Shown here: in pieces, positions 3,600-29,824 of the stretch
How positions within the stretch are numbered: the stretch's first letter is position 1
How the letters are laid out: every line of letters begins with the position of its first letter
Source: a virus
IMG/VR virus record: IMGVR_UViG_3300042470_000362
Location: 1-33,214 of that record
Reading direction: 5' to 3' (one strand)
DNA length: 33,214 bases
Position numbers and translations under genes: made by a program
The notes under the pieces: generated by a model
What the model was told of the DNA's origin: nothing
The model's database searches: none
The model's input: only the letters and a program-made list of their open reading frames with translations

Positions 3600-3911
3600 T
3601 TAGTCTTCGCATTCTTGGTTGCAAAAATCAAATTCATTGATACGAAACACTATACCAGCATTATCTTTTGATATATTCTTAGCAGAAGCATGGACTGTTA
3701 ATTTTGTTCCTTTTAGAGCATACTTTTCCAATGTTTCAGCACCAGTATGCCACGCTTCACAATATAGATATGTTGGCATTCTATTCTTTTCGCCACTTTT
3801 GGTTTTGCGATAAGTATAAACAACCATTATGAACTCTGCCCGTACAACATCTCCAACCATAGAAATTCTTGGGTTTTCCATTAGATACCCAGTAAAAGAA
3901 CATAAATTCAT
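3600..3911 (-). CDS. ssb: Single-stranded DNA-binding protein, SSB-like OB fold
   Basis: This 103-residue protein resembles the OB-fold core of bacterial SSB: an opening strand NLCSFTGYLMENPRI, a central AEFIMVVYTYRKTKSGE with basic and aromatic residues, then YLYCEAWHTGAETLEKYALKGTKLTVHA, which matches the SSB pattern of W-x-x-x-A-E-x-x-x-x-Y-x-x-KG. The C-terminus is acidic (NQECED), a short version of the acidic tip that recruits partners in SSBs, although the canonical DDDIPF is absent. It lies directly after the polymerase genes with an AAGGAG ribosome binding site, fitting a role in coating single-stranded DNA at the phage fork. It is shorter than E. coli SSB (178 residues) because the disordered linker is missing. 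Confidence 0.8.
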   Translation of the reverse strand: MNLCSFTGYLMENPRISMVGDVVRAEFIMVVYTYRKTKSGEKNRMPTYLYCEAWHTGAETLEKYALKGTKLTVHASAKNISKDNAGIVFRINEFDFCNQECED

Positions 3912-3963
3912 CTTATTCTCCTTGATCTTAATATATTAGCAACGACAGTCACAAAAAACACAC

Positions 3964-5529
3964 TCAGATTTCATGAATTTGATTAATAATAAATGAGTTA
4001 TCATTTTCACCAACAGATCCACAAAAGATTAGATTATTACCTTCATAAAGTATATACTTGTATTTTTCTTTTACTTTTGGAAAAACAATAACGCTGTCCA
4101 AAAGACATGTATCATCCTCTATAGTTAGAAAGGACATTAATTGCCCCTTAGATTCGCCCTTGGTTATCTTATAATCCGCCACGCGCTGAACGTTAGCAAC
4201 AATACATAAATCTTTACCTTTCTTACCATTTACAATTTCTTTGCATGTGGTATTTGCGGCAGATGTATCAGACGTTTCAACTTTGGTCATACTTACGGGA
4301 CAACCTAAGAATTTTACTTCTTGATCAATTAGCCAACTCGGATCATCTTCTAGATCATATGGAGGATTGATTAATAATTGTACCTCATTCTCTATTGCTT
4401 GTTTTCTATCAGCACGACTAGTGCCACCACCTTCTTTTTTAGTTGGTGCCAAATCATTTAAGCATTCTATAAAAGATGACCACTTCTTTTCTGAGTATTT
4501 TGTTTTTATCCATTCTTGTTCAGACTTTGTTAAAATTCTATAAATGTCATAATCATATATTGCTTTATTTCTTGTTATCTTATCGGCAAAATCCCTAAAA
4601 AATCCTACAGATGCTAATGCTTTGAATGCCGTTGAACTAATCTTGGGGCTTAAATATAATAATATTTCTAACCAAGTAAATTTAGTTATATTCTTAGATA
4701 GTTCTTTTTCTGATTCTGATATAGCCTCTATTAATTTATCACCAGTTTTACCAGCAAGAGACTTAATATCTTTGATACCAAAATAGATCTTACCCTTTTT
4801 AATATTGAATTTATTCTCATAATTGGCTAGTGACGGTGTTTTTACCTGAATATCAAATAATTTAGCTTCTGAAATTAATTCATATGTCTCTTGCTGTGGG
4901 TCTTGTTTTTCTATAGCATGATATAAATATGATAGGAAAAATTCATGGGTATGATGAGCTTTATAATAAGCACTCCAATAGGAGCATACTGCGTAAGAAA
5001 CACTATGAGATTTATTAAATGCATATCTTGATGATTTCTCAATCCATCCGAATATTTGTTCCGCTTCTTCTTTGGTAACTATACTAATCTTCTGTGCGCC
5101 CTCCATGAATGATTTCTTTACTTCATTCATCAAGGCAGCATTTTTCTTTCCAATGGCCTTACGAAGAACGTCAGCCTCTTGTAAATTGAATCCTGCGATC
5201 TTCTGTGCGATACGCATAGACTGTTCTTGGTATACTAAAATACCATAGGTTGGCTTTAATATTTCCTCCAAGGCTGGATGTAAATATGAAACTTCTTCAC
5301 GCCCATGCTTTCTATCAACATAGTGCTGTGTCATGCTTTTGCCGTCAACGAAAGCCTTTAGTGTTCCCGGTCTAATAATAGCAATTAATGCGGATAATTC
5401 TTCAATATTAGTTGGTGCCAATTTCTTTGACCAAGATTTACCAAGATTACTTTCTAATTGAAAAATACCCTTAGTTTTACCTTCAGCAAATAATTGCCAT
5501 GTATCCTTATCATTATAATTATCTAACAT
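3964..5529 (-). CDS. dnaE: DNA polymerase III alpha (C family), C-terminal half of a split gene
   Basis: This half (521 residues) carries the part of bacterial Pol III alpha after the catalytic palm. It starts in the linker before GIFQLES (E. coli AVFQLES), followed by IAIIRPGTLKAF, YVDRKHGREEVSYLHP, LKPTYGILVYQEQSMRIAQ and YAFNKSHSVSYAV, all close matches to fingers-domain motifs, then a tandem helical (HhH-type) region and a C-terminal OB domain (~residues 430-520, LCIVANVQRVADYKITKG onwards). A tau-binding C-terminal domain is absent. I chose ATG 5529, overlapping the exonuclease stop by 11 nt; the longer frame to 5559 would need a TTG inside the exonuclease gene without a better ribosome site. 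It must assemble with the N-terminal half (6192-7802) to work, since all three catalytic aspartates lie there. Confidence 0.9.
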   Translation of the reverse strand: MLDNYNDKDTWQLFAEGKTKGIFQLESNLGKSWSKKLAPTNIEELSALIAIIRPGTLKAFVDGKSMTQHYVDRKHGREEVSYLHPALEEILKPTYGILVYQEQSMRIAQKIAGFNLQEADVLRKAIGKKNAALMNEVKKSFMEGAQKISIVTKEEAEQIFGWIEKSSRYAFNKSHSVSYAVCSYWSAYYKAHHTHEFFLSYLYHAIEKQDPQQETYELISEAKLFDIQVKTPSLANYENKFNIKKGKIYFGIKDIKSLAGKTGDKLIEAISESEKELSKNITKFTWLEILLYLSPKISSTAFKALASVGFFRDFADKITRNKAIYDYDIYRILTKSEQEWIKTKYSEKKWSSFIECLNDLAPTKKEGGGTSRADRKQAIENEVQLLINPPYDLEDDPSWLIDQEVKFLGCPVSMTKVETSDTSAANTTCKEIVNGKKGKDLCIVANVQRVADYKITKGESKGQLMSFLTIEDDTCLLDSVIVFPKVKEKYKYILYEGNNLIFCGSVGENDNSFIINQIHEI

Positions 5530-6199
5530 ATAAGCCACCACTTGCAAATGCTTTATCAAATGTTATATTCTGATATACTGATCGATGTGTTTTCATTAGC
5601 TTTATAAATATATTAGCTTCATCCTTAACGTCTTGCAGAGCATCGTGAGCATTAACGGTGCTTAATCCCATTCTTTCTCTTAGTGAATCCATGCTAATAG
5701 ACTTTATATTAGGATCACTTTCTGTCCACGCAAAAACGTTATCCATAATATCTATCTTATATACTTTACTAAACAATTTTTGTTGTTCTCGTTCTTTATC
5801 CCAAGGCCCATATTCTTTACATAATCTATTTATTATGTGCATATCAAAACCAATAATATTAAAACCAACAGGAATTGGTGCAAAGAATGGTTCACCCTTC
5901 CAATTATATTGATCGACAAACTTTGTAAACTTTGACCAAACAGCTTTTAATGATGGTGCCTGCTCCAGCTTTTCTCTAGTTTTACCAGTAATTTTTAATG
6001 CTTCGTCTTGTATTGGGTCTAAACCAGCCGCTCTAGCCTTTTCCTCATCAAATATGGGTTTAATTTCACTATTAAACTGACCTTTAAGAGTAAGACTTCT
6101 ACCATCTAATGCCAACGCAGCAATTTGTGTCGGTTGAGTTTTGTGTGGATTGCGTGACCCAGTTTCAAAATCAAATATAATATAATCTCTATTAGCCAT
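5519..6199 (-). CDS. dnaQ: DEDDh 3'-5' exonuclease, DnaQ-like proofreading subunit
   Basis: This 226-residue protein has the three exonuclease motifs of the DnaQ/epsilon superfamily: ExoI FDFETG (D10, E12), ExoII GFNIIGFDMHII (D119) and ExoIII NAHDALQD (H185, D190), so it is of the DEDDh type with a full set of metal ligands. It most likely removes misincorporated nucleotides for the split polymerase: its ATG lies inside the last codons of the N-terminal polymerase gene (8-nt overlap ATGGCTAA) and its stop lies inside the beginning of the C-terminal polymerase gene. No clamp-binding motif is obvious. An independent role in DNA processing is possible, but placement argues for proofreading. Confidence 0.9.
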   Translation of the reverse strand: MANRDYIIFDFETGSRNPHKTQPTQIAALALDGRSLTLKGQFNSEIKPIFDEEKARAAGLDPIQDEALKITGKTREKLEQAPSLKAVWSKFTKFVDQYNWKGEPFFAPIPVGFNIIGFDMHIINRLCKEYGPWDKEREQQKLFSKVYKIDIMDNVFAWTESDPNIKSISMDSLRERMGLSTVNAHDALQDVKDEANIFIKLMKTHRSVYQNITFDKAFASGGLYVR

Positions 6200-7802
6200 T
6201 TATAGTTTCCTTATTTTGTATAAACATTAGCTTATCTAAAAGAGATAAGCCTAGAACATCAAATTTTACATGACCTAGACTTTCAAGGTCTGCCATTTCT
6301 AATCCAGCAATCTTTTCGGATGAATCACGCTGATCAACCATTGGACAAACGGTATTCAATTTATGTTTAGATATAACCACTCCAGCGGCATGTTTACCCT
6401 GTGTTTTAAATGTGCCTTCGATTTTTATAGCTTGATCAAAATATTCTGCATAGTCACCATCTAATTTACCGTCTTCATTAATATGGCAAAAATCTCTTAG
6501 ATCATTAGCATTATTTAATAATGCCCACCTAATAATAGATCTATCCTCATCATCCATGTCTGCTAATTGATCAGAAATCTCTGCTTCATTAGGTATGCTC
6601 TTGGTAATAGTATTCATTTCAGCAAAAGAACATGCCTCATTAACACGAAGAACTTCTTTAATAGCACTTCTTCCTTGTAGCCTACCAAATGTAATCATTT
6701 GGCTAACATGATCTTGACCATACTTATTTTTTAAATATAATAGAACATCATCACGCCTCTTGGCTGGAACATCCATATCAATATCTGGTAATGATATATG
6801 ATCAGCACTATTTCTTCCAGCGTTATAAAACCTAGAGAATAGTAAATCAAATTCTAATGGATCAATCTTAGTAATACCAATTAAATATGATATTAAACAT
6901 CCTGCGGCGGAACCTCTACCGGGACCAGATAACCATCCCTGATCATTAACATATTTAATAATATCTTGTACAATGAGAAAATAACCAAACAAATTTGCAT
7001 TTTTTATAACATTGAATTCTTCATCAAAACGTTCAGCATATTTTTGCTTATCTTCTGGATTTGACACTTTATTATTTTTAATGAGCAGAGTCTTCCAGCC
7101 ATCTCTACATAATTGTTTTAGATAATCTTCTTCTGATTGATTGTCTGGACAGGAAAATACTGGAAGCATTGGCTTACTTAATATATCATATTCCTCACAA
7201 TTATTAACAATATTATCTATAAATTCTAAATCTTTCTTATTAGCATTTTGTGTTACAGAGTGTAGTTTATCCTTTGACCATACGCAAAGATCGTCATGAG
7301 TAAACTGGTATTCAATATTTTTATCTAATTCACCACTATGGATCAACTTGTTAATTTTGGGTAATGTTGTTTTTAATTCAGAGCATAGTAATATTCTATG
7401 TAATTTAGCATCTTCGCTATTTACATAATAGCTTACCGGTAACAGATTAATATTGTTCTCAATCTTAATTATATTTTGCTTTTTCAATATACTAGATAAA
7501 ATATCTTTATTTAAATTACCTTCATTATCTAGTGATGATACTAGGTGAATAAGATCATACCAACCATCTTTATTCTTTGCAAATAAAGTAAAGTCATCAA
7601 ATGAACAACCTATTATGGGCTTTATGCCAAACTTTTTACAAGCTTTATAAAACGCAACAGCGCCGGATATTGTTTTATAATCAGCAATACCACACGCAAT
7701 ATATCCTTCTGACTTACACTTGCTAGCTAATTCTGAGGGTTTAGAAAATCCCTTTAGTAGACTATAATGTGTAAAATTTCTTAATGGACACCAATTCAAC
7801 AT
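6192..7802 (-). CDS. dnaE: DNA polymerase III alpha (C family), N-terminal half with PHP and palm
   Basis: This 536-residue protein is the N-terminal half of a C-family replicative polymerase. Residues ~5-90 are a PHP domain (THYSLLKG; KFGIKPIIGCSF), residues ~290-530 the palm: SGPGRGSAAGCLISY, the catalytic LPDIDMDV (D340, D342), VSQMITFGRLQGRSAIKEV, KHAAGVVIS and the third catalytic aspartate in HVKFDVLGL (D515). The reading frame stops 21 codons later, before the fingers domain, which is in a separate gene (3964-5529). In the PHP domain the first HxH and the later Asp-His-type ligands are replaced (RNFTHYS, IADYKT), so it should not bind metals. I chose ATG 7802 (AAGGA five bases upstream) over a TTG at 7829. 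A promoter lies just upstream. Confidence 0.92.
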   Translation of the reverse strand: MLNWCPLRNFTHYSLLKGFSKPSELASKCKSEGYIACGIADYKTISGAVAFYKACKKFGIKPIIGCSFDDFTLFAKNKDGWYDLIHLVSSLDNEGNLNKDILSSILKKQNIIKIENNINLLPVSYYVNSEDAKLHRILLCSELKTTLPKINKLIHSGELDKNIEYQFTHDDLCVWSKDKLHSVTQNANKKDLEFIDNIVNNCEEYDILSKPMLPVFSCPDNQSEEDYLKQLCRDGWKTLLIKNNKVSNPEDKQKYAERFDEEFNVIKNANLFGYFLIVQDIIKYVNDQGWLSGPGRGSAAGCLISYLIGITKIDPLEFDLLFSRFYNAGRNSADHISLPDIDMDVPAKRRDDVLLYLKNKYGQDHVSQMITFGRLQGRSAIKEVLRVNEACSFAEMNTITKSIPNEAEISDQLADMDDEDRSIIRWALLNNANDLRDFCHINEDGKLDGDYAEYFDQAIKIEGTFKTQGKHAAGVVISKHKLNTVCPMVDQRDSSEKIAGLEMADLESLGHVKFDVLGLSLLDKLMFIQNKETING

Positions 7803-7852
7803 ATATTTCCTTATCAAATTGATCAACAATAAACATCGCCAAGGACTATACT

Positions 7853-7881
7853 ATAATAGCCTCTAGCGAAATTTTTTTCAA
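7853..7881 (-). promoter_or_regulatory. Sigma-70-type promoter for the polymerase operon
   Basis: Reading the minus strand, TTGAAA (7881-7876; 5/6 to TTGACA) and TATTAT (7858-7853; 5/6 to TATAAT) are separated by exactly 17 bp, in one of the few real intergenic gaps. The predicted start near 7846 would leave a ~44-nt leader before ATG 7802. This suggests recognition by unmodified host polymerase and thus early or middle expression of the replication genes. AT-rich sequence can give such matches by chance. Confidence 0.5.
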
Positions 7882-7904
7882 GATCAAGATTTTTTAAGAT
7901 CAAG
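7873..7904. repeat. Short imperfect tandem repeat at a gene end
   Basis: TTTTTTCAAGATCAAG (7873-7888) is followed after one base by TTTTTTAAGATCAAG (7890-7904). The copies straddle the stop of the methyltransferase gene, and the downstream copy carries the -35 element of the promoter above. It looks like a slippage duplication that separated the methyltransferase end from the polymerase promoter. Confidence 0.65.
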
Positions 7905-10397: not shown

Positions 10398-11417
10398 TTA
10401 TCCCGGTGCAGAGTAGTATCCTATATCAAAGCCTTGTTTTGAGCAATCTTTGATAGTTTGTTCCATACCATTAGATTTTAAGCTATTCTCTATATATATA
10501 CACATGTTTTGGTCTGTTCCCGGCCAGTTGGTTTTGCAATAATGGCATAATTTAGTACATTTCCAGTTCTCTCTATTTGGAGATATTGGCTGTGGTTTTT
10601 GGTTATTTTTAATGTCCTCAAATTTAGCTTTCAACATCTTAAGAAATCTTTTTTGGTCAGATTCATCAAAACACATGGAAAATGGGCCACCATCCTTGAT
10701 AAAAAAGATGCTCATAATTGACTGTTTATACCCAGGAAAAAGTTTTGATATTGCATAGTTATATAATAACAATTGAGGGTCCGAACAAAGTTTTTCATAT
10801 GTTTTTTCTTCGCCAGTAGCCCAATCTAGCCTACGTCCAGTTTTCCAATCTATAACCTCAATAATCCCCTCAGAAGTTTCTGTAACTAAGTCTATGGTTC
10901 CTTTAATAGCTAATTGACCCTTAATCACCTTGCCATTATATTCATATTCAAAGTGCGCCCAATCTTCATCTATTGGAATATCAAAATGAGGTTCAGCCGC
11001 CACGATATTTCTATATCTAGGATCGAATTGACCGTCATTATAGTTTAGGGTATCCCAAACTAATTGTAGACAGTTTTCATTATCACCCTTAGTAAAATTA
11101 TGATTTGAACCAGAAGTATAAAAAGTAAAACTTTTTGATAATAAGGTATTAACAATATCCTTTTGGAATAATTCAGATTTTTTAATAGCTACCGCTCCAA
11201 TAGCGTCATCTTCAATAATCAATTTATTTTTTTTAGGATTGTCCTGCTGATATTTTTTTAACTTGGCTAATACTTCCATTACCTTATGGACTATGGTTCC
11301 AAGTTCAGCTTTTTTACCACTAGTTTGTTGATGCCCTAGCACATAAGTTATAAAGTATTGCATTTGACAATACGAATAATTATTGTAGCTAGATGATCTA
11401 ATATATGTTACGATCAT
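10398..11417 (-). CDS. PD-(D/E)XK nuclease, RecB/Cas4-like
   Basis: The 339-residue product has the RecB-family nuclease pattern: RSSSYNNYSYCQMQYFITY near the N-terminus, a G-T-I-V-H helix (ELGTIVHKVMEVL), KGTIDLV (motif II aspartate) and IEVIDWKTGRR (motif III D-x-K), then QLLLYNYAISKLFPG, the usual motif IV helix. One cysteine near the N-terminus and a C-terminal cluster (CTKLCHYC, MC) could hold a Cas4/AddB-type iron-sulphur cluster. ATG 11417 is preceded by GGAG at six bases and overlaps the upstream stop as TGATG; a TTG 12 bases earlier is unlikely. It may resect DNA ends for the RecA-like recombinase. Confidence 0.82.
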   Translation of the reverse strand: MIVTYIRSSSYNNYSYCQMQYFITYVLGHQQTSGKKAELGTIVHKVMEVLAKLKKYQQDNPKKNKLIIEDDAIGAVAIKKSELFQKDIVNTLLSKSFTFYTSGSNHNFTKGDNENCLQLVWDTLNYNDGQFDPRYRNIVAAEPHFDIPIDEDWAHFEYEYNGKVIKGQLAIKGTIDLVTETSEGIIEVIDWKTGRRLDWATGEEKTYEKLCSDPQLLLYNYAISKLFPGYKQSIMSIFFIKDGGPFSMCFDESDQKRFLKMLKAKFEDIKNNQKPQPISPNRENWKCTKLCHYCKTNWPGTDQNMCIYIENSLKSNGMEQTIKDCSKQGFDIGYYSAPG

Positions 11418-12160
11418 CACGCACTCCAAATTCTATTGTTAGATTTCAATGTTTCGCATAAATCTTCTATGGTCATATTAGAATTATCAATAATAATATC
11501 GAAATTTTTCCAATCAAACATTTCTATATCTAGAGCTTTTTCTGAATCATGGTCACTGTGATATAAATCTCTTGTTAGTCTAATAACAATGCCACCATTG
11601 TCCCTAATGGCAGATACTTCATTTGGAAATCTAACATCTGGAATAATAGCTATTTCGGATTGCTCATTAATAACTCTATTTAATGTAGCATTTACCCATG
11701 CATTATTATATATTTTACGCACAACATCAGTTCCAAAATATTGCAAAAATTCTCTTGCTGTCATTGGGCCAGTTTTATCACTAGATGAATTTGGAATATC
11801 ATCCCATAATAAATGGGTTGGTTTATTTTTATCATCATCACTACCATAGACTTGTTGATGATCTATATCAAATAAACCTATAGCTATTTCTTTTAGAGTG
11901 TCAGCAAAATGATAAATCTTAATATAGGGCCACAGTTCTCTATGGGCATACTCAACAAATGACATATCTTTTCTAGTCACATCAAATTCGCCATACCCAA
12001 GAGTACCTGTGGAATCTGATGTTTGCACAATCAATTTACCATTTGTATCAATATAAAAATCTTTTATCATATCTCTAGATAATAATACAGAACCATTAAT
12101 ACAATTGGCTACGGTATTCTTTCCAGCTTGCTTGCGACCAGCAATTCCAATAATTTTCAT
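11417..12160 (-). CDS. Deoxynucleoside monophosphate kinase, T4 gp1-like
   Basis: This 247-residue protein matches phage dNMP kinases in length (T4 gp1 is 241) and pattern: P-loop GIAGRKQAGKNT at residues 5-16, a central YHFADTLKEIA, TAREFLQYFGTDVVR, then IIPDVRFPNEVSAIRDNGG and RLTRD, the characteristic DVRFPNE segment and basic lid. It would phosphorylate dNMPs to dNDPs in the cytoplasm, feeding the dNTP pool with the phage ribonucleotide reductase and dUTPase. It overlaps the primase gene by 4 nt and the nuclease gene by 1 nt, so it belongs to the same translational unit as the replication genes. The segment around residues 40-60 is longer than in simple kinases. Confidence 0.88.
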   Translation of the reverse strand: MKIIGIAGRKQAGKNTVANCINGSVLLSRDMIKDFYIDTNGKLIVQTSDSTGTLGYGEFDVTRKDMSFVEYAHRELWPYIKIYHFADTLKEIAIGLFDIDHQQVYGSDDDKNKPTHLLWDDIPNSSSDKTGPMTAREFLQYFGTDVVRKIYNNAWVNATLNRVINEQSEIAIIPDVRFPNEVSAIRDNGGIVIRLTRDLYHSDHDSEKALDIEMFDWKNFDIIIDNSNMTIEDLCETLKSNNRIWSA

Positions 12161-13185
12161 GAGTATAAACCCTTTATTTGTGGTAAAACTATATTTTGAA
12201 TTTGATCAATAGTCATTTCGCCAATATCTTTTGTTGGTATCTTGGGAAAGGATAGTTTGTACATTCTATTTAATTGTCTTTGAATTTGTATCTTTGCTTC
12301 TCTGCCTGCTTGGTCATTATCGGTCAAAACAACAATATGTGTTATTGGCATCCTATTTAATTGAATTTCTTGTTCTTTACTTAATGACTTTCCGAATATG
12401 CTAATTACATTGTTAATGCCAGCCTCATATAATCTCCAAACATCACCCTGACCCTCAACAATGAATAAAGAGTGGGTTTGTTTAACTTTTTCTAAGGCTC
12501 TGTGATAATTGTAAAATAATCCAGTTTTAGTGAATCCAGTAGGATAAAATAAAAACTTTGGTGTCTTATATTCTTTTACCGATCTGCCTATGATTCCAAC
12601 AACATTTTGTCCATTATGGTCATGAATGGGAATAACTGCCCTATCATACATTTTGGATTTTGGATTATGACAATCACCAACCTCAAAATATTTTAATGTT
12701 TCTTCTTTAAATCCTCTGCCAACAAAATACTTTGATGGATATGTTAATTTTTCTACTATAATTGGTTCATATTCTTTAGCAATAATATTATCATTTAATG
12801 TTGATACTAATTGTGCAAACTCGTCTGGATTATCATCTTTAATATTAATCGTGTTAGATTTGCTTTTACTCTTTTTAACATTTAATAGATCACAGGACCA
12901 CTTTAACGCTTGTGCAAAGCCAACATCTTCGCCCTCTTCTTTTGATAATGTTCCGCGTATCAAACCAAAAATATCATTACGGTAGTGGTGCTGACAATCT
13001 CTGGTCCAGCATTTCCAAATACCTTTATCAATAGAAAACGAAAAAGCTCTAGGATTATCACTAGACTCATGAACCGGACAAGTGGAGTAAATATTATCTC
13101 CAAATACTTCACATGTCATGCCAAGTTTCTTAAACACCAATTCGGCATTCTTATTCAGCTTCTGTTTGATCGTATGTAAATCCAT
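12157..13185 (-). CDS. dnaG: DnaG-type DNA primase
   Basis: The 342-residue protein combines an N-terminal CHC2-like zinc finger (CPVH at 36-39 with C59 and C64) and a TOPRIM catalytic domain: FIVEGQGDVWRLYEAG (E244) and VVLTDNDQAG (D289, D291), the metal-binding residues for RNA primer synthesis. Between them DRAVIPIHDHNGQNVVGIIGR is the RNA-polymerase basic region found in DnaG. It lacks the C-terminal helicase-binding domain of cellular DnaG (~580 residues), as is common for phage primases. It begins inside the end of the helicase gene (35-nt overlap), and primase plus helicase almost certainly act together at the fork. Confidence 0.92.
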   Translation of the reverse strand: MDLHTIKQKLNKNAELVFKKLGMTCEVFGDNIYSTCPVHESSDNPRAFSFSIDKGIWKCWTRDCQHHYRNDIFGLIRGTLSKEEGEDVGFAQALKWSCDLLNVKKSKSKSNTINIKDDNPDEFAQLVSTLNDNIIAKEYEPIIVEKLTYPSKYFVGRGFKEETLKYFEVGDCHNPKSKMYDRAVIPIHDHNGQNVVGIIGRSVKEYKTPKFLFYPTGFTKTGLFYNYHRALEKVKQTHSLFIVEGQGDVWRLYEAGINNVISIFGKSLSKEQEIQLNRMPITHIVVLTDNDQAGREAKIQIQRQLNRMYKLSFPKIPTKDIGEMTIDQIQNIVLPQIKGLYS

Positions 13186-14626
13186 CTTGCTTTATTTTGT
13201 TAAGTGACTCTGTGTTAACTAAGCCAGTATCGCCAACTGGTTGATTCTTGAACTCATTACGTGTTTTTAATTCTCTTAATTTTGCATGAGCGCCCTGCAT
13301 TATCATATTAATATAATCGCCATCATCTAAGCCTGCTCCATGCCTAGCAACAATAGGAACAAGTTTTCTATTACCAGCATTTGGCCCATCTTCTGCTAAT
13401 TCTTCTGGAGATTTAATCTTAAATATTGTGAATGATGTACACAGCCAGATTAATCTATCGGATCCGCTCACAGCATCTGTGCTTTCTTTTGTGATGCCAT
13501 CTCTATTTAATTGAACAAAGGATAAGCATGGAATATCTAGCTTAACACATAGATTATGTAATGATGTTATCTGAAAACCGAGTGCTTGATATTCCTGTAT
13601 ATTATTAGTGATAGATGATGATGACATTAGCTTAAGATAATCATATATAATAACACAGTCCTTTGTTTTGCCATTATCATCTAGTTTTACCTCTTGCATC
13701 ACCCATCGTCTAACAAGATTTAATATTTGATCAAATGGTTTACCCGCAACGCTGATATAACTATAAGGAATAGATTCTATGCTTTTCATAGCCTCTATAA
13801 CTTTTTGATGCTTATCTTCATCTTCAATAAATTGACCTGTGGCAATTTCGTTAATTGGAACACCGCTAATATTAGCAATTAATCGGTTTAAATGATCTTC
13901 TTTTGACATTTCAGTATCAAGCATTAATACTGGAACATTTTTAGAAGCCACATTAAGAGCAACATTATCCGCAAATACACTCTTACCAACTTTTGGTCTA
14001 GCGGCAATTAGATCAACACACTTTCTTCTTAATCCGCCACCTATTGCTTCATCAAAGCGATTAAACCCTGTTGGTATTCCTATAATATCGCACTTGTTCT
14101 TTTCTAAGAATTCGATATAATTTTTAATATCTTTACCAATCTTTTCTGGATTTTCTCCACCATCATCCTCTCTTAAAAAGTCTGTAACGGGATTCTCTAG
14201 AATCTGTATAATTTCATTAATAGATTCTGATCCTGTGATATCATCAATATCCTTATGAACTTTTGCTGTTAGCTTTTTGATCTTACGAGCAAATTCAAAC
14301 TTCTTAAGCTGAACACTGAAGCTGAAAATATTTTCTTTACTAATTGGAAAATCTAATAAAGATTTAATATATTTTAATTCCTGTGGAGTATTAACAGTCT
14401 CCGATAAATTTAATTGTGAGGCTGCGGCTAATAATGATGGAATATCAATCTTTTGCTCATTACTAATAACTTTTTCTATACACCTGTAGAGTACTTGATT
14501 ATTAGAGTGACCAAAAGTTTCGTGATTAATCAGATCTGATACTGATATATAACCATCTAAACCGTGCTGTAATATACCAGCAAGGACTGCTCGTTCAGCA
14601 CCAATATCTGTTAATTTTACTTCCAT
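13151..14626 (-). CDS. dnaB: Replicative DNA helicase, DnaB family
   Basis: This 491-residue protein has a DnaB-like layout: a helical N-terminal domain (residues ~5-110, with AERAVLAGILQHG), a linker helix, and a RecA-type ATPase domain opening with GIPTGFNRFDEAIGGGL. Walker A is ARPKVGKS (209-216), the catalytic glutamate lies in VLMLDTEMS, Walker B in VIIYDYLKLM, followed by SFVQLNRD and SGSDRLIW, matching the DnaB sensor and arginine-finger regions. It unwinds DNA as a hexamer ahead of the polymerase. A ~50-residue tail after the ATPase core carries no known motif. It is followed at once by the overlapping primase gene. Confidence 0.93.
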   Translation of the reverse strand: MEVKLTDIGAERAVLAGILQHGLDGYISVSDLINHETFGHSNNQVLYRCIEKVISNEQKIDIPSLLAAASQLNLSETVNTPQELKYIKSLLDFPISKENIFSFSVQLKKFEFARKIKKLTAKVHKDIDDITGSESINEIIQILENPVTDFLREDDGGENPEKIGKDIKNYIEFLEKNKCDIIGIPTGFNRFDEAIGGGLRRKCVDLIAARPKVGKSVFADNVALNVASKNVPVLMLDTEMSKEDHLNRLIANISGVPINEIATGQFIEDEDKHQKVIEAMKSIESIPYSYISVAGKPFDQILNLVRRWVMQEVKLDDNGKTKDCVIIYDYLKLMSSSSITNNIQEYQALGFQITSLHNLCVKLDIPCLSFVQLNRDGITKESTDAVSGSDRLIWLCTSFTIFKIKSPEELAEDGPNAGNRKLVPIVARHGAGLDDGDYINMIMQGAHAKLRELKTRNEFKNQPVGDTGLVNTESLNKIKQDGFTYDQTEAE

Positions 14627-21709: not shown

Positions 21710-21814
21710 TTACTCATCGTATGGGTATCCATCTTCGTGATCTTCCGAATAAGTTCCTTCGCTCTCATTGTCCCACCAAGCTGGCCCAACATCTGGTAAA
21801 TCTTCGTTAGTCAT
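21710..21814 (-). CDS. Acidic 34-residue microprotein between nrdA and nrdB
   Basis: A 34-codon frame fills the gap between nrdA and nrdB: its ATG (21814) overlaps the nrdA stop as ATGA, and its TAA ends three bases before the nrdB start. The product has 12 Asp/Glu, no Lys or Arg, two adjacent Trp (PAWWDNE) and ends HEDGYPYDE. The exact filling of the gap and the coupled start argue it is translated. It does not resemble glutaredoxin or NrdI (no CxxC). A role with the reductase, for example binding one subunit through its acidic tail, is inference only. Confidence 0.55.
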   Translation of the reverse strand: MTNEDLPDVGPAWWDNESEGTYSEDHEDGYPYDE

Positions 21815-24039
21815 ATTGAACATGAGCCAGATTCACAACCAGATTGTTTTTCAGTATTACCGTCGCCATCAGGAGTATTGCAGTAATAAAAATTCTTTAC
21901 ACCATATTTATACCCATAAATCTGATCTTTAATCAAGATACTCAAGGGTATATTGCCCTCTGGATAATGAGAATAATTATAGTACAAATTAACACTAATA
22001 CTCATATCTACAAATTTTTGTAAAACAGCACAAATATTTAAGATTGCTTTATTGTCTTTCATTTCCCATGCTAAAGTGTAATAATTTTTTCTTGAGGCAA
22101 AATTTGGTACCAGCTGCTTTAGAATGCCATTTTTAGCCTTCTTGTAAGGAAGTAGACTTCTGACAGGTTCTATTCCATTGGTGCTGTTCTGGATGACGCT
22201 AGAGGACTCACAGGGCATTATAGCGGTTAGTGTAGAGTGGCGAAGCCCGTAAGTTTTTATCCTTTGTCGTAACCCTTCCCAATCCATAGTATACTCTGGT
22301 TTAATGAGTTTGTCAACTGTTTTTTTGTACCAATCAATAGGAAGTAAACCCCTAGAGTATTTGGTTTCATTAAATTTATTACATGGGCCAAGTTCTTGAG
22401 CTAATTTACAAGATTCATTTAATAAATGCCATTGAATTTTTTCCATAGTAGCATGAACTAAAGACAGGGTATCATTATCATCATATTTTAATTTATTTTT
22501 TGCTAAAAAACCAGCTAGGTTAGTTATTCCTATTCCTAATGATCTACGGTTTTTTGTAAAGTTTTCACCAGCAGCAACTGGATAATCTTGATAATCAATA
22601 ACATTTTCTAGAGTGCGAACCGTCACAGAACATGCTTGCTCAATATCATTATCATTTTCTAGTTCTAATAGATTTAATGCTGATAAAATACATATGCCAA
22701 TCTCACCCTCTTTATCATCAATAGAATTTATTGGCTTTGTTGGGTGAAGAATTTCTTGACATAGATTACTCATGTATACTGGAGCGTCCCACGATCCATG
22801 CTCATTAGCATTATCAATATTCATAACGTATATACGGCCAGTTTCTAGTCTTTCTTTTGTAAAAATCTCTGCCAATTTTCTAGCACTGATTTTCTTTTTC
22901 ATTTTAACGTGGCGACTATTTTCATATTTCTCGTATAACTTTTTAAAGTCATCATTATTATTCATAGAACTATATAGCCCACCGGTTTCTTCTGGACTCA
23001 TTAGAGTAATATCTTCATTTTTAATTAATCGTTCATAGAATAATTTATTAAATTGTACAGAATAATCCAGCTTTCTTACTCTATTATCGTCAGTTCCAGC
23101 ATTATTCTTTAGCATCATAACATCTTCAATTTCATAATGCCAAAAAGGAATATGAACTGTGGCTGAACCCCCACGAATACCATTTTGACTGGTGGCCTTA
23201 ACAGTAGATTCAAAAATTTTAAGATACGGAATTAGACCAGTATGAATAACTTCTCCACCGCGAATACTAGAATTAATCGGTCTGATACGTCCTATATTTA
23301 GTCCTATGCCAGCCCGTCTTGCTGTATACTTTCCAACGGCATGAACGCTGGAAAAAATAGATGCTAAATCATCTTCTACGTCCACTAAAACACAGCTAGC
23401 AAATTGTTTTATTTTAGTTCTTACGCCAGCCATAATTGGTGTTGGCAAGTTGATCTTAAATGTGGAAAAACATTCATATGCTTCTTCAACATCTTTAACG
23501 GTGTTAAATAACGCCATAGCAATACACATGTATGCGAATTGTGGGGTTTCATATATTTGGCCCGTTGCCCTATTCTTAACAAGATATTTGTCAATTAGTT
23601 GCTGCAAACCGGCATATGTGAATAGATAATCTCTATCATGATTAATAAATGATTGTATTTTTTCTAATTGCTTTGAGTCCCACTTAGTAAATAATGATGA
23701 GTCATAAATACTATTCTCAATATTCTTTTTAATATGGCTAACTAAAGATGGTGGGCTATCATATCGCTCCCATAAATCTTTTCTAAGAGACATGTTCAGT
23801 AGTCGAGAAGCAACGTACTGATAGTTTGGTCTACTTGGAGAAGTCAAATCATTAGCAGATTTGATTAATATTTGGTGAATATCTTTTGTAGTAACGCCAT
23901 CAGTTAATGATAACTTGGCATTCATCTCTATATCTGACCAAGAAACATTATTAATATCCTTGATCGCCCACTCTAGCACCTTATGAATCTTTTCTACATT
24001 ATATGCTTCAACACTACCGTTTCTTTTCTGAACCTGCAT
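21811..24039 (-). CDS. nrdA: Ribonucleotide reductase class Ia, alpha subunit
   Basis: The 742-residue protein has an N-terminal ATP-cone (VQKRNGSVEAYNVEKI), followed by the ten-stranded barrel: FASCVLVDVEDD (C216), SNLCQEI with N425, C427 and E429 as the thiyl-radical site, GICILSALNL (C450, partner of C216), MPCESSSVIQNSTNGIEP and the radical-relay YY (718-719). It ends with CESGSC (C735, C740), the redox pair that re-reduces the active site, as in E. coli CESGAC. ATG 24039 is chosen over a TTG at 24057 because GGGGGAG lies 9 bases ahead. It makes deoxyribonucleotides with NrdB and is allosterically regulated by the ATP-cone. Confidence 0.96.
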   Translation of the reverse strand: MQVQKRNGSVEAYNVEKIHKVLEWAIKDINNVSWSDIEMNAKLSLTDGVTTKDIHQILIKSANDLTSPSRPNYQYVASRLLNMSLRKDLWERYDSPPSLVSHIKKNIENSIYDSSLFTKWDSKQLEKIQSFINHDRDYLFTYAGLQQLIDKYLVKNRATGQIYETPQFAYMCIAMALFNTVKDVEEAYECFSTFKINLPTPIMAGVRTKIKQFASCVLVDVEDDLASIFSSVHAVGKYTARRAGIGLNIGRIRPINSSIRGGEVIHTGLIPYLKIFESTVKATSQNGIRGGSATVHIPFWHYEIEDVMMLKNNAGTDDNRVRKLDYSVQFNKLFYERLIKNEDITLMSPEETGGLYSSMNNNDDFKKLYEKYENSRHVKMKKKISARKLAEIFTKERLETGRIYVMNIDNANEHGSWDAPVYMSNLCQEILHPTKPINSIDDKEGEIGICILSALNLLELENDNDIEQACSVTVRTLENVIDYQDYPVAAGENFTKNRRSLGIGITNLAGFLAKNKLKYDDNDTLSLVHATMEKIQWHLLNESCKLAQELGPCNKFNETKYSRGLLPIDWYKKTVDKLIKPEYTMDWEGLRQRIKTYGLRHSTLTAIMPCESSSVIQNSTNGIEPVRSLLPYKKAKNGILKQLVPNFASRKNYYTLAWEMKDNKAILNICAVLQKFVDMSISVNLYYNYSHYPEGNIPLSILIKDQIYGYKYGVKNFYYCNTPDGDGNTEKQSGCESGSCSI

Positions 24040-24069
24040 ATATAGTATCTCCCCCAAATATTGTGTAAA

Positions 24070-27757: not shown

Positions 27758-29824
27758 TTATAGTATTGATTGTGTGATGTTAACAGCGGCAACCCAGCGT
27801 ATATTTTTACTATTAAGACCAGTAACTCTAAGTTCTAATGCTTCATTAGTATCATCAGCAACAACACTAGCGATTGTTGAACTCATATCTCCCTCGCTCC
27901 AATTTTCTGAAATTACAGATTCTATTAATGATGTTGCATTGGAATTATTTCGTCTTAAACATCCTCTAAAAACCCACGATGCGGCAGTATGATCAGTATC
28001 ATTATGAGCCACTAATTGAATAATAAAATTCCATGTTGTGCTAGCAGGAATAACTAATCTATTGCCACCACCAGCGGCATCGCCGTTTGTTGTTAATACA
28101 ACATTAGCAGTATTATCTGTGGTATTCTTTTTAAGAATTTTAGTAATAGTATTAGCATTGCTAGATCCAACATATAGTCCGTTTGTGGCAGTATGAATAG
28201 CATCAATTGTACGAGCATTGTCTATATGCACATATTGAGAATGATCATCATCACCAAGACCGAATAACAATCCGTGATCGTTCTGAGTCACGCCGTTAAT
28301 TGTTGATGATACACTCTCTCTTAGATCGAGTATACTCTGTAAACTACTCTTTGGAGTATTAGTATAACTATTATTTGTTAAAAATATTAATCTATAGAGT
28401 GGTTTAATTTCACTAGCTGGAATATTAGCTAAATTCAGATCTGACCAATTATTGTGATTTTCAGCACTTCCTAAACTACTGTCTTCTTTTTGACCAACAA
28501 TTGCTAGTATAGGATCATTAATATCATTAGTGGCCACAATCCACATAGCAAAATATCGGTTATTAGGAACGTTTGGAATTGTCCAAGTTCCACCAGAATA
28601 CAAATTATATTGCGCTCTTGTGCCATTATATTTAACTGGATATGGTGTTCCAGAATCTCTTACCCATTGACCAGTACTTCCGCTGTGATAGTATGTTGGA
28701 ATATAAGCAATAGGATCCAGTTGTTGAGTAAATTCAACTCCATTGTCTCCATCAGCAATATTAATAATGATATCTTCTTGATAAAGAGTTCCATTACTAA
28801 TACTAACTTGAGCATGACTATTTGAGGTACCATTTCCTAATAATACATAATTACCAATACTTAATCCCTCAATATATTGAACACCAAAAGTGCGATGAAT
28901 CCACTTGTGGGTTGAAGAATCCATTCGGATACCGTGGCGTTCTTCTCCAAAAAATGTGCTTTGATTAATATCAGCGTTCCAATGAATATACGCAATTGGC
29001 ACATCAGTATCAAAATCGAATTCTGTTGTTTTATTATCTAATAATCCAGTATTAGTATTAAAATGTAAATAGTTGAGTGCTGTTCCACTACCTATAACAA
29101 CTGTTTCTGTAGCTGTTTTGGTAACCTTAACGCCTTCTATGTATATAGCATAACTAGATCCACTTGGTTGAATGGTAAAAGTTCTAGTGCTATCATTAAA
29201 ACTGATAACGCTATCTGTTCGATTTACGAATCCTTGAGGTTCTTGACTTAGTACATTAATCTCTGTATGACGATTATTTAGTGTGAGGGTGTTACCGCTA
29301 TCAATATAGGACAGATTAATACCAGTGCCAGCAACTAATAATTGTGCTGTTCTATCATCAACACTTTCTGCAAAATTAGTAGCATAATAAATATTATTAC
29401 CAGATGTTAGAATAAAGTCTCCAGAGGCTGTGCTGGTTATATTTTCTAAACCTACTAAACTATTTGGCTTGCTTGTTATTTGTAGCCATGCTGGACTAAT
29501 ATCTGCTAATTGAACATAAGAAGCTTCTAAAATTTTACTTCCACTACCCAAATAAACCCATCTAACACCATCAGATGTTAAAACTATTGTACCTTCAACA
29601 ATTTGGTCTTGTTGATTAACAGTTAAATCAGCAATTCCGCCAGCCGATACGATATTAATAAAATCTTGCGTGACATAACTTAAACTATTCCACGCCGAAG
29701 TTCCATCCCCAAATTTAATTTTGTTTGTATCTGTTTCAAAACCCGGCTCACCAAGAGATAGAACTGGATTTATACTAGACCAATTTGAAGATGTGTCTCT
29801 TCTTAATTGAATTTTGACTGTCAT
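27758..29824 (-). CDS. Large tail fibre-like protein with Mtd-type N-terminal domain
   Basis: The 688-residue protein begins with a short domain, IQLRRDTSSNW, SLGEPGFETDTNKIKFGD and GTSAWNSL, which is the N-terminal attachment module of Bordetella phage Mtd-like and related phage fibre proteins. The rest is beta-rich, Ser/Thr/Asn-rich, with few Cys, and includes IYIEGVKVTKTATETVVIGSG (repeated domain edges), YDLHNDTDHTAASWVF-like segments and a C-terminal globular part ending VAAVNITQSIL. It probably forms a fibre trimer for receptor binding. There is no template repeat or reverse transcriptase in the window, so no evidence of Mtd-like hypervariation. Confidence 0.75.
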   Translation of the reverse strand: MTVKIQLRRDTSSNWSSINPVLSLGEPGFETDTNKIKFGDGTSAWNSLSYVTQDFINIVSAGGIADLTVNQQDQIVEGTIVLTSDGVRWVYLGSGSKILEASYVQLADISPAWLQITSKPNSLVGLENITSTASGDFILTSGNNIYYATNFAESVDDRTAQLLVAGTGINLSYIDSGNTLTLNNRHTEINVLSQEPQGFVNRTDSVISFNDSTRTFTIQPSGSSYAIYIEGVKVTKTATETVVIGSGTALNYLHFNTNTGLLDNKTTEFDFDTDVPIAYIHWNADINQSTFFGEERHGIRMDSSTHKWIHRTFGVQYIEGLSIGNYVLLGNGTSNSHAQVSISNGTLYQEDIIINIADGDNGVEFTQQLDPIAYIPTYYHSGSTGQWVRDSGTPYPVKYNGTRAQYNLYSGGTWTIPNVPNNRYFAMWIVATNDINDPILAIVGQKEDSSLGSAENHNNWSDLNLANIPASEIKPLYRLIFLTNNSYTNTPKSSLQSILDLRESVSSTINGVTQNDHGLLFGLGDDDHSQYVHIDNARTIDAIHTATNGLYVGSSNANTITKILKKNTTDNTANVVLTTNGDAAGGGNRLVIPASTTWNFIIQLVAHNDTDHTAASWVFRGCLRRNNSNATSLIESVISENWSEGDMSSTIASVVADDTNEALELRVTGLNSKNIRWVAAVNITQSIL

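Follow-up and report, generated by a model that had tools for sequence, protein, structure and literature searches.

The IMG/VR virus record IMGVR_UViG_3300042470_000362, analysed here over its whole length of 33,214 bases (hereafter the window; the record is marked linear and is perhaps a fragment), encodes a C-family DNA polymerase that is divided into two genes, with the gene of a putative proofreading exonuclease lying between the halves. The three open reading frames (ORFs), called N, X and C in their 5′ to 3′ order, and the two overlaps that link them are as follows:

6192..7802, minus strand: N-half of a C-family DNA polymerase (PHP, palm and thumb, with three catalytic Asp), 536 residues from ATG; Pfam, alignment, AlphaFold2, Foldseek
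6192..6199, minus strand: overlap of the N-half stop and the exonuclease start, ATGGCTAA, 8 nucleotides
5519..6199, minus strand: DEDDh 3′-5′ exonuclease X (RNase_T family), putative proofreading subunit, 226 residues; Pfam, invariant residues
5519..5529, minus strand: overlap of the exonuclease stop and the C-half start, ATGTTAGATAA, 11 nucleotides
3964..5529, minus strand: C-half of the C-family DNA polymerase (fingers, helix-hairpin-helix region, oligonucleotide/oligosaccharide-binding (OB) fold), 521 residues from ATG; Pfam, AlphaFold2, Foldseek

The coordinates that a preliminary description of this DNA had given for the three ORFs and both overlaps were recovered when the window was read again. 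Pfam searches yielded matches above cut-off to PHP (PF02811) and DNA_pol3_alpha (PF07733) in the N-half (E 2e-69) and to DNA_pol3_finger (PF17657, E 1e-48) in the C-half, i.e. the PHP, DNA_pol3_alpha and finger domains follow each other in DnaE order and are spread over two chains. A DnaE made of a single polypeptide is not encoded in the window, and fused polymerases were found only in the subgroup L132-L136/L177-L181 discussed below. The palm aspartates D340, D342 and D515 of the N-half are invariant across 38 diverse relatives. The product of the middle gene matches RNase_T (E 3e-14) and carries the complete DEDDh set of catalytic residues, D10, E12, D119, H185 and D190, invariant across 34 diverse relatives, in agreement with its initial description as a DEDDh exonuclease located between the polymerase halves.

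Alignment of both halves with full-length E. coli DnaE confirmed that the polymerase is split between palm and fingers. In phmmer comparisons with solved structures, residue 532 of the N-half corresponds to E. coli DnaE residue 563 and residue 16 of the C-half to residue 592 (both in the numbering of the longer ORFs), which puts the break at ~577-587 in E. coli DnaE numbering. We take this region to be the palm-fingers boundary, the domain borders being those that we assume for the E. coli structure. The break is away from the cyanobacterial intein site, as already noted, the motif AFNKSHS being uninterrupted within the window C-half. When modelled singly with AlphaFold2, the halves gave a mean pLDDT (predicted local distance difference test score) of 92.4 (N) and 92.1 (C); the N model ends in a helix (residues 520-534), and the C model begins with seven loop residues followed by a helix (8-15). 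Foldseek matched the N-half model to the Pol III alpha subunits of E. coli, Taq and Mycobacterium tuberculosis (Mtb; E down to 3e-34) and the C-half model to Pol III alpha (E 2e-21). Measured over 73 distinct split loci, the combined length of the N tail and the C head has a median of 40 residues (quartiles 36.5-44.5), while the linker of fused polymerases spans 38-44 residues; the cut is therefore clean, nothing having been lost or gained, and no extra association domain was acquired.

The same gene order is widespread among related viral sequences, which were gathered by IMG/VR searches and a hidden Markov model (HMM) scan of all loci, on contigs of up to 231 kb. N-X-C as separate ORFs is present in 92 distinct IMG/VR sequences, corresponding to ~70 clusters at roughly 97% identity, versus 5 distinct sequences with a fused polymerase within the lineage. 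Exonuclease X is 91% down to 72% identical in close relatives. Ratios of non-synonymous to synonymous differences (pN/pS) between the window and three relatives are 0.21-0.32 for N, 0.11-0.13 for X and 0.13-0.15 for C; judging by sequence comparison, all three genes evolve under purifying selection. No close relatives were detected among INPHARED phages (at best 27% identity for the exonuclease and below about 38% for either half), and a scan of GTDB genomes revealed no prophage or host copy of the exonuclease.

These data bear on one alternative explanation of the split, namely an assembly error, a pseudogene or a polymerase in decay. Fragmented records do occur: DnaE is in many pieces in that of Serratia phage KKP 3709, probably because of sequencing error. 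Here, however, the same break recurs, far beyond chance, in 92 distinct sequences that come from many separate assemblies, with open frames, purifying selection and invariant active sites. Recurrence, selection and the invariant catalytic residues together exclude error and decay, so that the chance of such an explanation appears negligible, as the preliminary description had expected for an assembly error.

The junctions are more variable. An N-X overlap is present in 37 of the 92 distinct loci (29 of the 92 having the identical overlap length of 8 nucleotides), and a gap or an entire extra gene separates the two ORFs in the other 55. Most relatives have at least one junction consisting of a gap or of another gene (HNH/endonuclease VII, methyltransferase or glycosyltransferase), indicating that translational coupling is optional and is not what maintains the arrangement. 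The overlaps, initially taken as a sign of co-translation, can thus be read in this way for the present genome, but not in general. N-X and X-C both act as hot spots of insertion, the incoming genes being HNH/endonuclease VII-like, of the FkbM methyltransferase type or glycosyltransferase-like (for instance L007:7613-8176, L016:6653-7042 and L028:5327-6001), and a gene inserted at X-C often starts at the overlapping position that the C-half start occupies elsewhere.

The two halves could in principle be joined after translation or transcription, either by trans-splicing of a split intein, by a split intron, or by frameshifting through the overlaps. Overlapping ORFs allow the latter in principle, and in relatives this polymerase is indeed interrupted by split inteins at other sites, between GPGRG and SAAG (L045, L057, L069, L125 and L132) or between FN(A/K) and SH (L131). 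In contrast, no intein sequence was found in the N tails and C heads at the break in ~60 loci, in line with what had been noted from the window, and intein halves typical of split-intein DnaE were detected neither at the break nor in the FNKSHS region of the window. Rfam gave no match at gathering score in the window, only sub-threshold chance matches in 3900-7900, so no group I or group II ribozyme was recognized at the interruption, where the ORF overlaps leave no space for an intron. The lack of overlap between N and X in 55/92 loci rules out a conserved frameshift fusion. Moreover, the inteins occupy conserved motifs, but the linker that holds the inteinless break is variable, which makes the break unlikely to be an intein relic. 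Joining of the halves by any of these routes therefore seems very improbable. With neither intein nor intron at the break, and with both halves conserved in trans, the likely product would be a polymerase made of separate chains, as had been suggested.

Several relatives carry inteins in one of the polymerase halves. The N-half is cut in the palm motif, between GPGRG and SAAG, in L045:2581-5345 and also in L069, L057, L125 and L132, with IntN on the first piece and IntC on the second. An endonuclease-like gene lies between the intein-split pieces in L045 and L132, that of L045 being TnsA-like according to Pfam (E 6e-4). In L126:3130-5840, the N-half is distributed over three ORFs, with a split-intein break and then, after residue ~344, what looks like a second interruption, extra sequence lying between. 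The C-half harbours a split intein between FNA and SHA, with a gene in between, in L131:7647-10528, a cis intein between FN(A/K) and SH in L124:7584-9638 and L125:7842-9836, and an intein after the RPG motif in L217:12697-14847. We abandoned the idea that the inteins between FN(A/K) and SH occupy the exact cyanobacterial DnaE site, since they are about three residues off the position where we assume that site to be.

Our preferred interpretation, which we hold with considerable confidence, is that the sole replicase of a lineage of uncultured tailed phages of large size is a DnaE-type alpha subunit of two chains, the halves reassociating non-covalently, with an exonuclease that proofreads separately. 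Translation would yield the alpha subunit in two chains, separated at the flexible palm-fingers linker; each half would fold by itself, and the two would come together non-covalently through their native palm-fingers interface, as two halves conserved in trans without splicing would permit in the manner of the gp43A/B split polymerase; and the separate DEDDh exonuclease would proofread in trans, a task that falls to DnaQ/epsilon in the case of DnaE. Association of the two halves, their activity as a polymerase, binding of the exonuclease and a three-chain complex are all putative at this stage. One feature weighs against this interpretation: the PHP metal-binding motif has been lost in the clade of the window (FTHYS...ADY; window 7700-7802), whereas HxH...TDH is intact in the remaining split clades as well as in the fused group, and the mode of X binding may consequently differ between clades. 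X is present in clades with and without the PHP motif, so the split and the loss of this motif are unconnected.

In the fused loci, L132-L136 and L177-L181, X comes first (upstream) and is followed by one uninterrupted ORF for the full polymerase, L132, with its split intein in the palm, being the exception; in L133, this ORF has a frame of 1142 residues. Split and fused loci share their neighbours (DnaB, primase, deoxynucleoside monophosphate (dNMP) kinase and PDDEXK upstream; the single-stranded DNA-binding protein (SSB) in some cases, GT1926 and GT811 downstream), indicating that they are alternative states of one locus, which in both cases is flanked by the PDDEXK exonuclease gene on one side and by SSB/glycosyltransferase genes on the other. 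Relatives with adjacent halves, which the preliminary description had put forward as possible evidence against a genuine split, thus exist in one subgroup, but X is upstream in them and there is no intron or intein at the break; these relatives inform the history of the locus and leave the split unrefuted.

As to this history, the fused sequences are nested in the split clade, with 99/99 support in a mixture-model tree and 99 in the Shimodaira–Hasegawa-like approximate likelihood ratio test (SH-aLRT) in a larger tree, and the linker of the fused polymerases looks like the two stumps of a split one put together. It is therefore rather probable that the split came first and that the subgroup L132-L136, L177-L181 later re-fused the halves, the exonuclease having moved upstream, although a single split clade was not rejected by the approximately unbiased (AU) test (p 0.118), the base of the exonuclease tree lacks resolution, and the fused branch is long. 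Alternatively, X followed by a fused polymerase would be ancestral, and the exonuclease would have moved into the linker once. One may conjecture that duplication of an X-polymerase block, followed by complementary losses, could interconvert the two orders.

The position of X raises the possibility that the exonuclease is a structural bridge between the halves, in an obligate three-chain enzyme, which would explain the location of its gene. Indeed, X lies between the halves in 92/92 split loci, even though both junctions gain and lose other genes, and it is the best conserved of the three genes near the window, with the lowest pN/pS. Gene order, however, does not demonstrate contact; the fused subgroup keeps X beside the polymerase, so that X is required even where there are no halves to be bridged, and no exonuclease lies between the halves of the two-gene DnaE of phages phiT1, Fowlmouth and Cuke (see below). 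We consider such a bridging role unlikely. We are equally doubtful about the scenario that combines an obligate N-X-C replicase, with an assembly dependent on the exonuclease, and a later re-fusion in one subgroup. If the exonuclease did bridge the halves, no polymerase could form without its proofreader.

We return to the two-chain polymerase with its separate proofreader and to its place in phage replication. A single C-family polymerase was found in each of 27 records, its gene being fragmented in G012 into several pieces, and no family A (PF00476) or family B (PF00136) polymerase was found in 18 large related records, the number of large records covered per family being 13-27; the split DnaE is thus probably the only replicase of the lineage. 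For the beta clamp, no middle domain was detected in the 18 large records and no C-terminal domain in the 27 (these records may be fragments), and the sliding clamp of the host would be used. Other replication genes are found on both sides of the polymerase:

3600..3911, minus strand: SSB-like protein, directly downstream, a conserved neighbour; Pfam E 3e-5 and 24.3 bits, just under the cut-off of 26, and synteny
10398..14626, minus strand: DnaB helicase, DnaG-type primase, dNMP kinase and PD-(D/E)XK exonuclease, upstream, in the same order in split and fused relatives

The window also encodes a RecA/UvsX-like recombinase and a ribonucleotide reductase, whose large subunit (21811-24057) is closest to those of marine T4-like cyanophages and pelagiphages (~54% identity). 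Positions 27758-29824 encode a tail-fibre-like protein whose N-terminal domain is of the Major tropism determinant type (Pfam Mtd_N). The terminase of the relative L232 has only remote cultured relatives; neither it nor the ribonucleotide reductase pointed to a host, the cultured matches of the two being remote or unspecific.

The lineage provides a widespread natural case of a main replicase that would work as two chains, with the palm-fingers linker as the point of division. At one orthologous locus, the polymerase occurs intact, split or fractured by inteins, with the proofreader inside or outside the gene. This forms a natural series for gene fission, in which the passage of a single protein into several, and perhaps its reversal, becomes directly testable. 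A naturally split Pol III could also be a possible scaffold for controllable polymerases.

Among known systems, the DnaE and DnaQ/epsilon pair is similar in domain order, in the three catalytic aspartates, in the Foldseek matches and in having a separate DEDDh exonuclease; it differs in that alpha is divided here into two chains, whose genes are separated by that of the exonuclease. A break in the same linker without intein occurs in Rossellomorea phage phiT1 (L226; gp20/gp18) and in Mycobacterium phages Fowlmouth (L228; 85/86) and Cuke (L229; 86/87), each annotated in its record with two Pol III alpha genes. No exonuclease is inserted in these phages, the halves being separated by a 49-codon ORF in phiT1 and overlapping by 4 nucleotides in the mycobacteriophages. 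Their polymerases are only distantly related to those studied here, so the breaks look independent, and the recurrence of the cut in unrelated phages suggests that the linker tolerates breakage. Bacteroides phage DAC19 and Luteibacter phage Pluto, considered as further cases of the same arrangement, were rejected since their DnaE is a single ORF; in Aeromonas phage Gekk3-15, the predicted genes are too fragmentary to count as a case for or against.

Cyanobacterial split-intein DnaE and the 'fractured' phage genes that contain split inteins also have separately encoded pieces, and some relatives of the window resemble them in having split inteins with an endonuclease gene between. The break in the window is inteinless, and the FNKSHS intein region follows it ~170 residues further downstream.

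Other divided polymerases have been described in phages. Microbacterium cluster EF phages carry two genes related to Pol III alpha (AnnaSerena gp56/gp57; PMC7302621), but there the break is elsewhere, judging by gene length (345 + 767 residues), and nothing is inserted. In group 2.2 jumbo phages, a minimal Pol III alpha is split into two standalone proteins (PMC7824862); these are encoded by distant genes alongside a family B replicase, whereas the polymerase reported here is full-length, its genes are adjacent, and it is the only one found. The split gp43 of T4-like phages (25 and 44RR), whose halves co-purify and have polymerase activity in the case of phage 25 (PMC2988022), belongs to family B and is interrupted by a homing endonuclease or an untranslated spacer. 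The preliminary description regarded the arrangement as possibly undescribed; given these three reports, the split as such is not new, but an interposed proofreader was found nowhere else. An exonuclease located between DnaE halves is described in none of the open-access literature or phage records examined, and an earlier report is possible. Split phage polymerases are already known, and the new element of the present system is the exonuclease interposed between the two halves.

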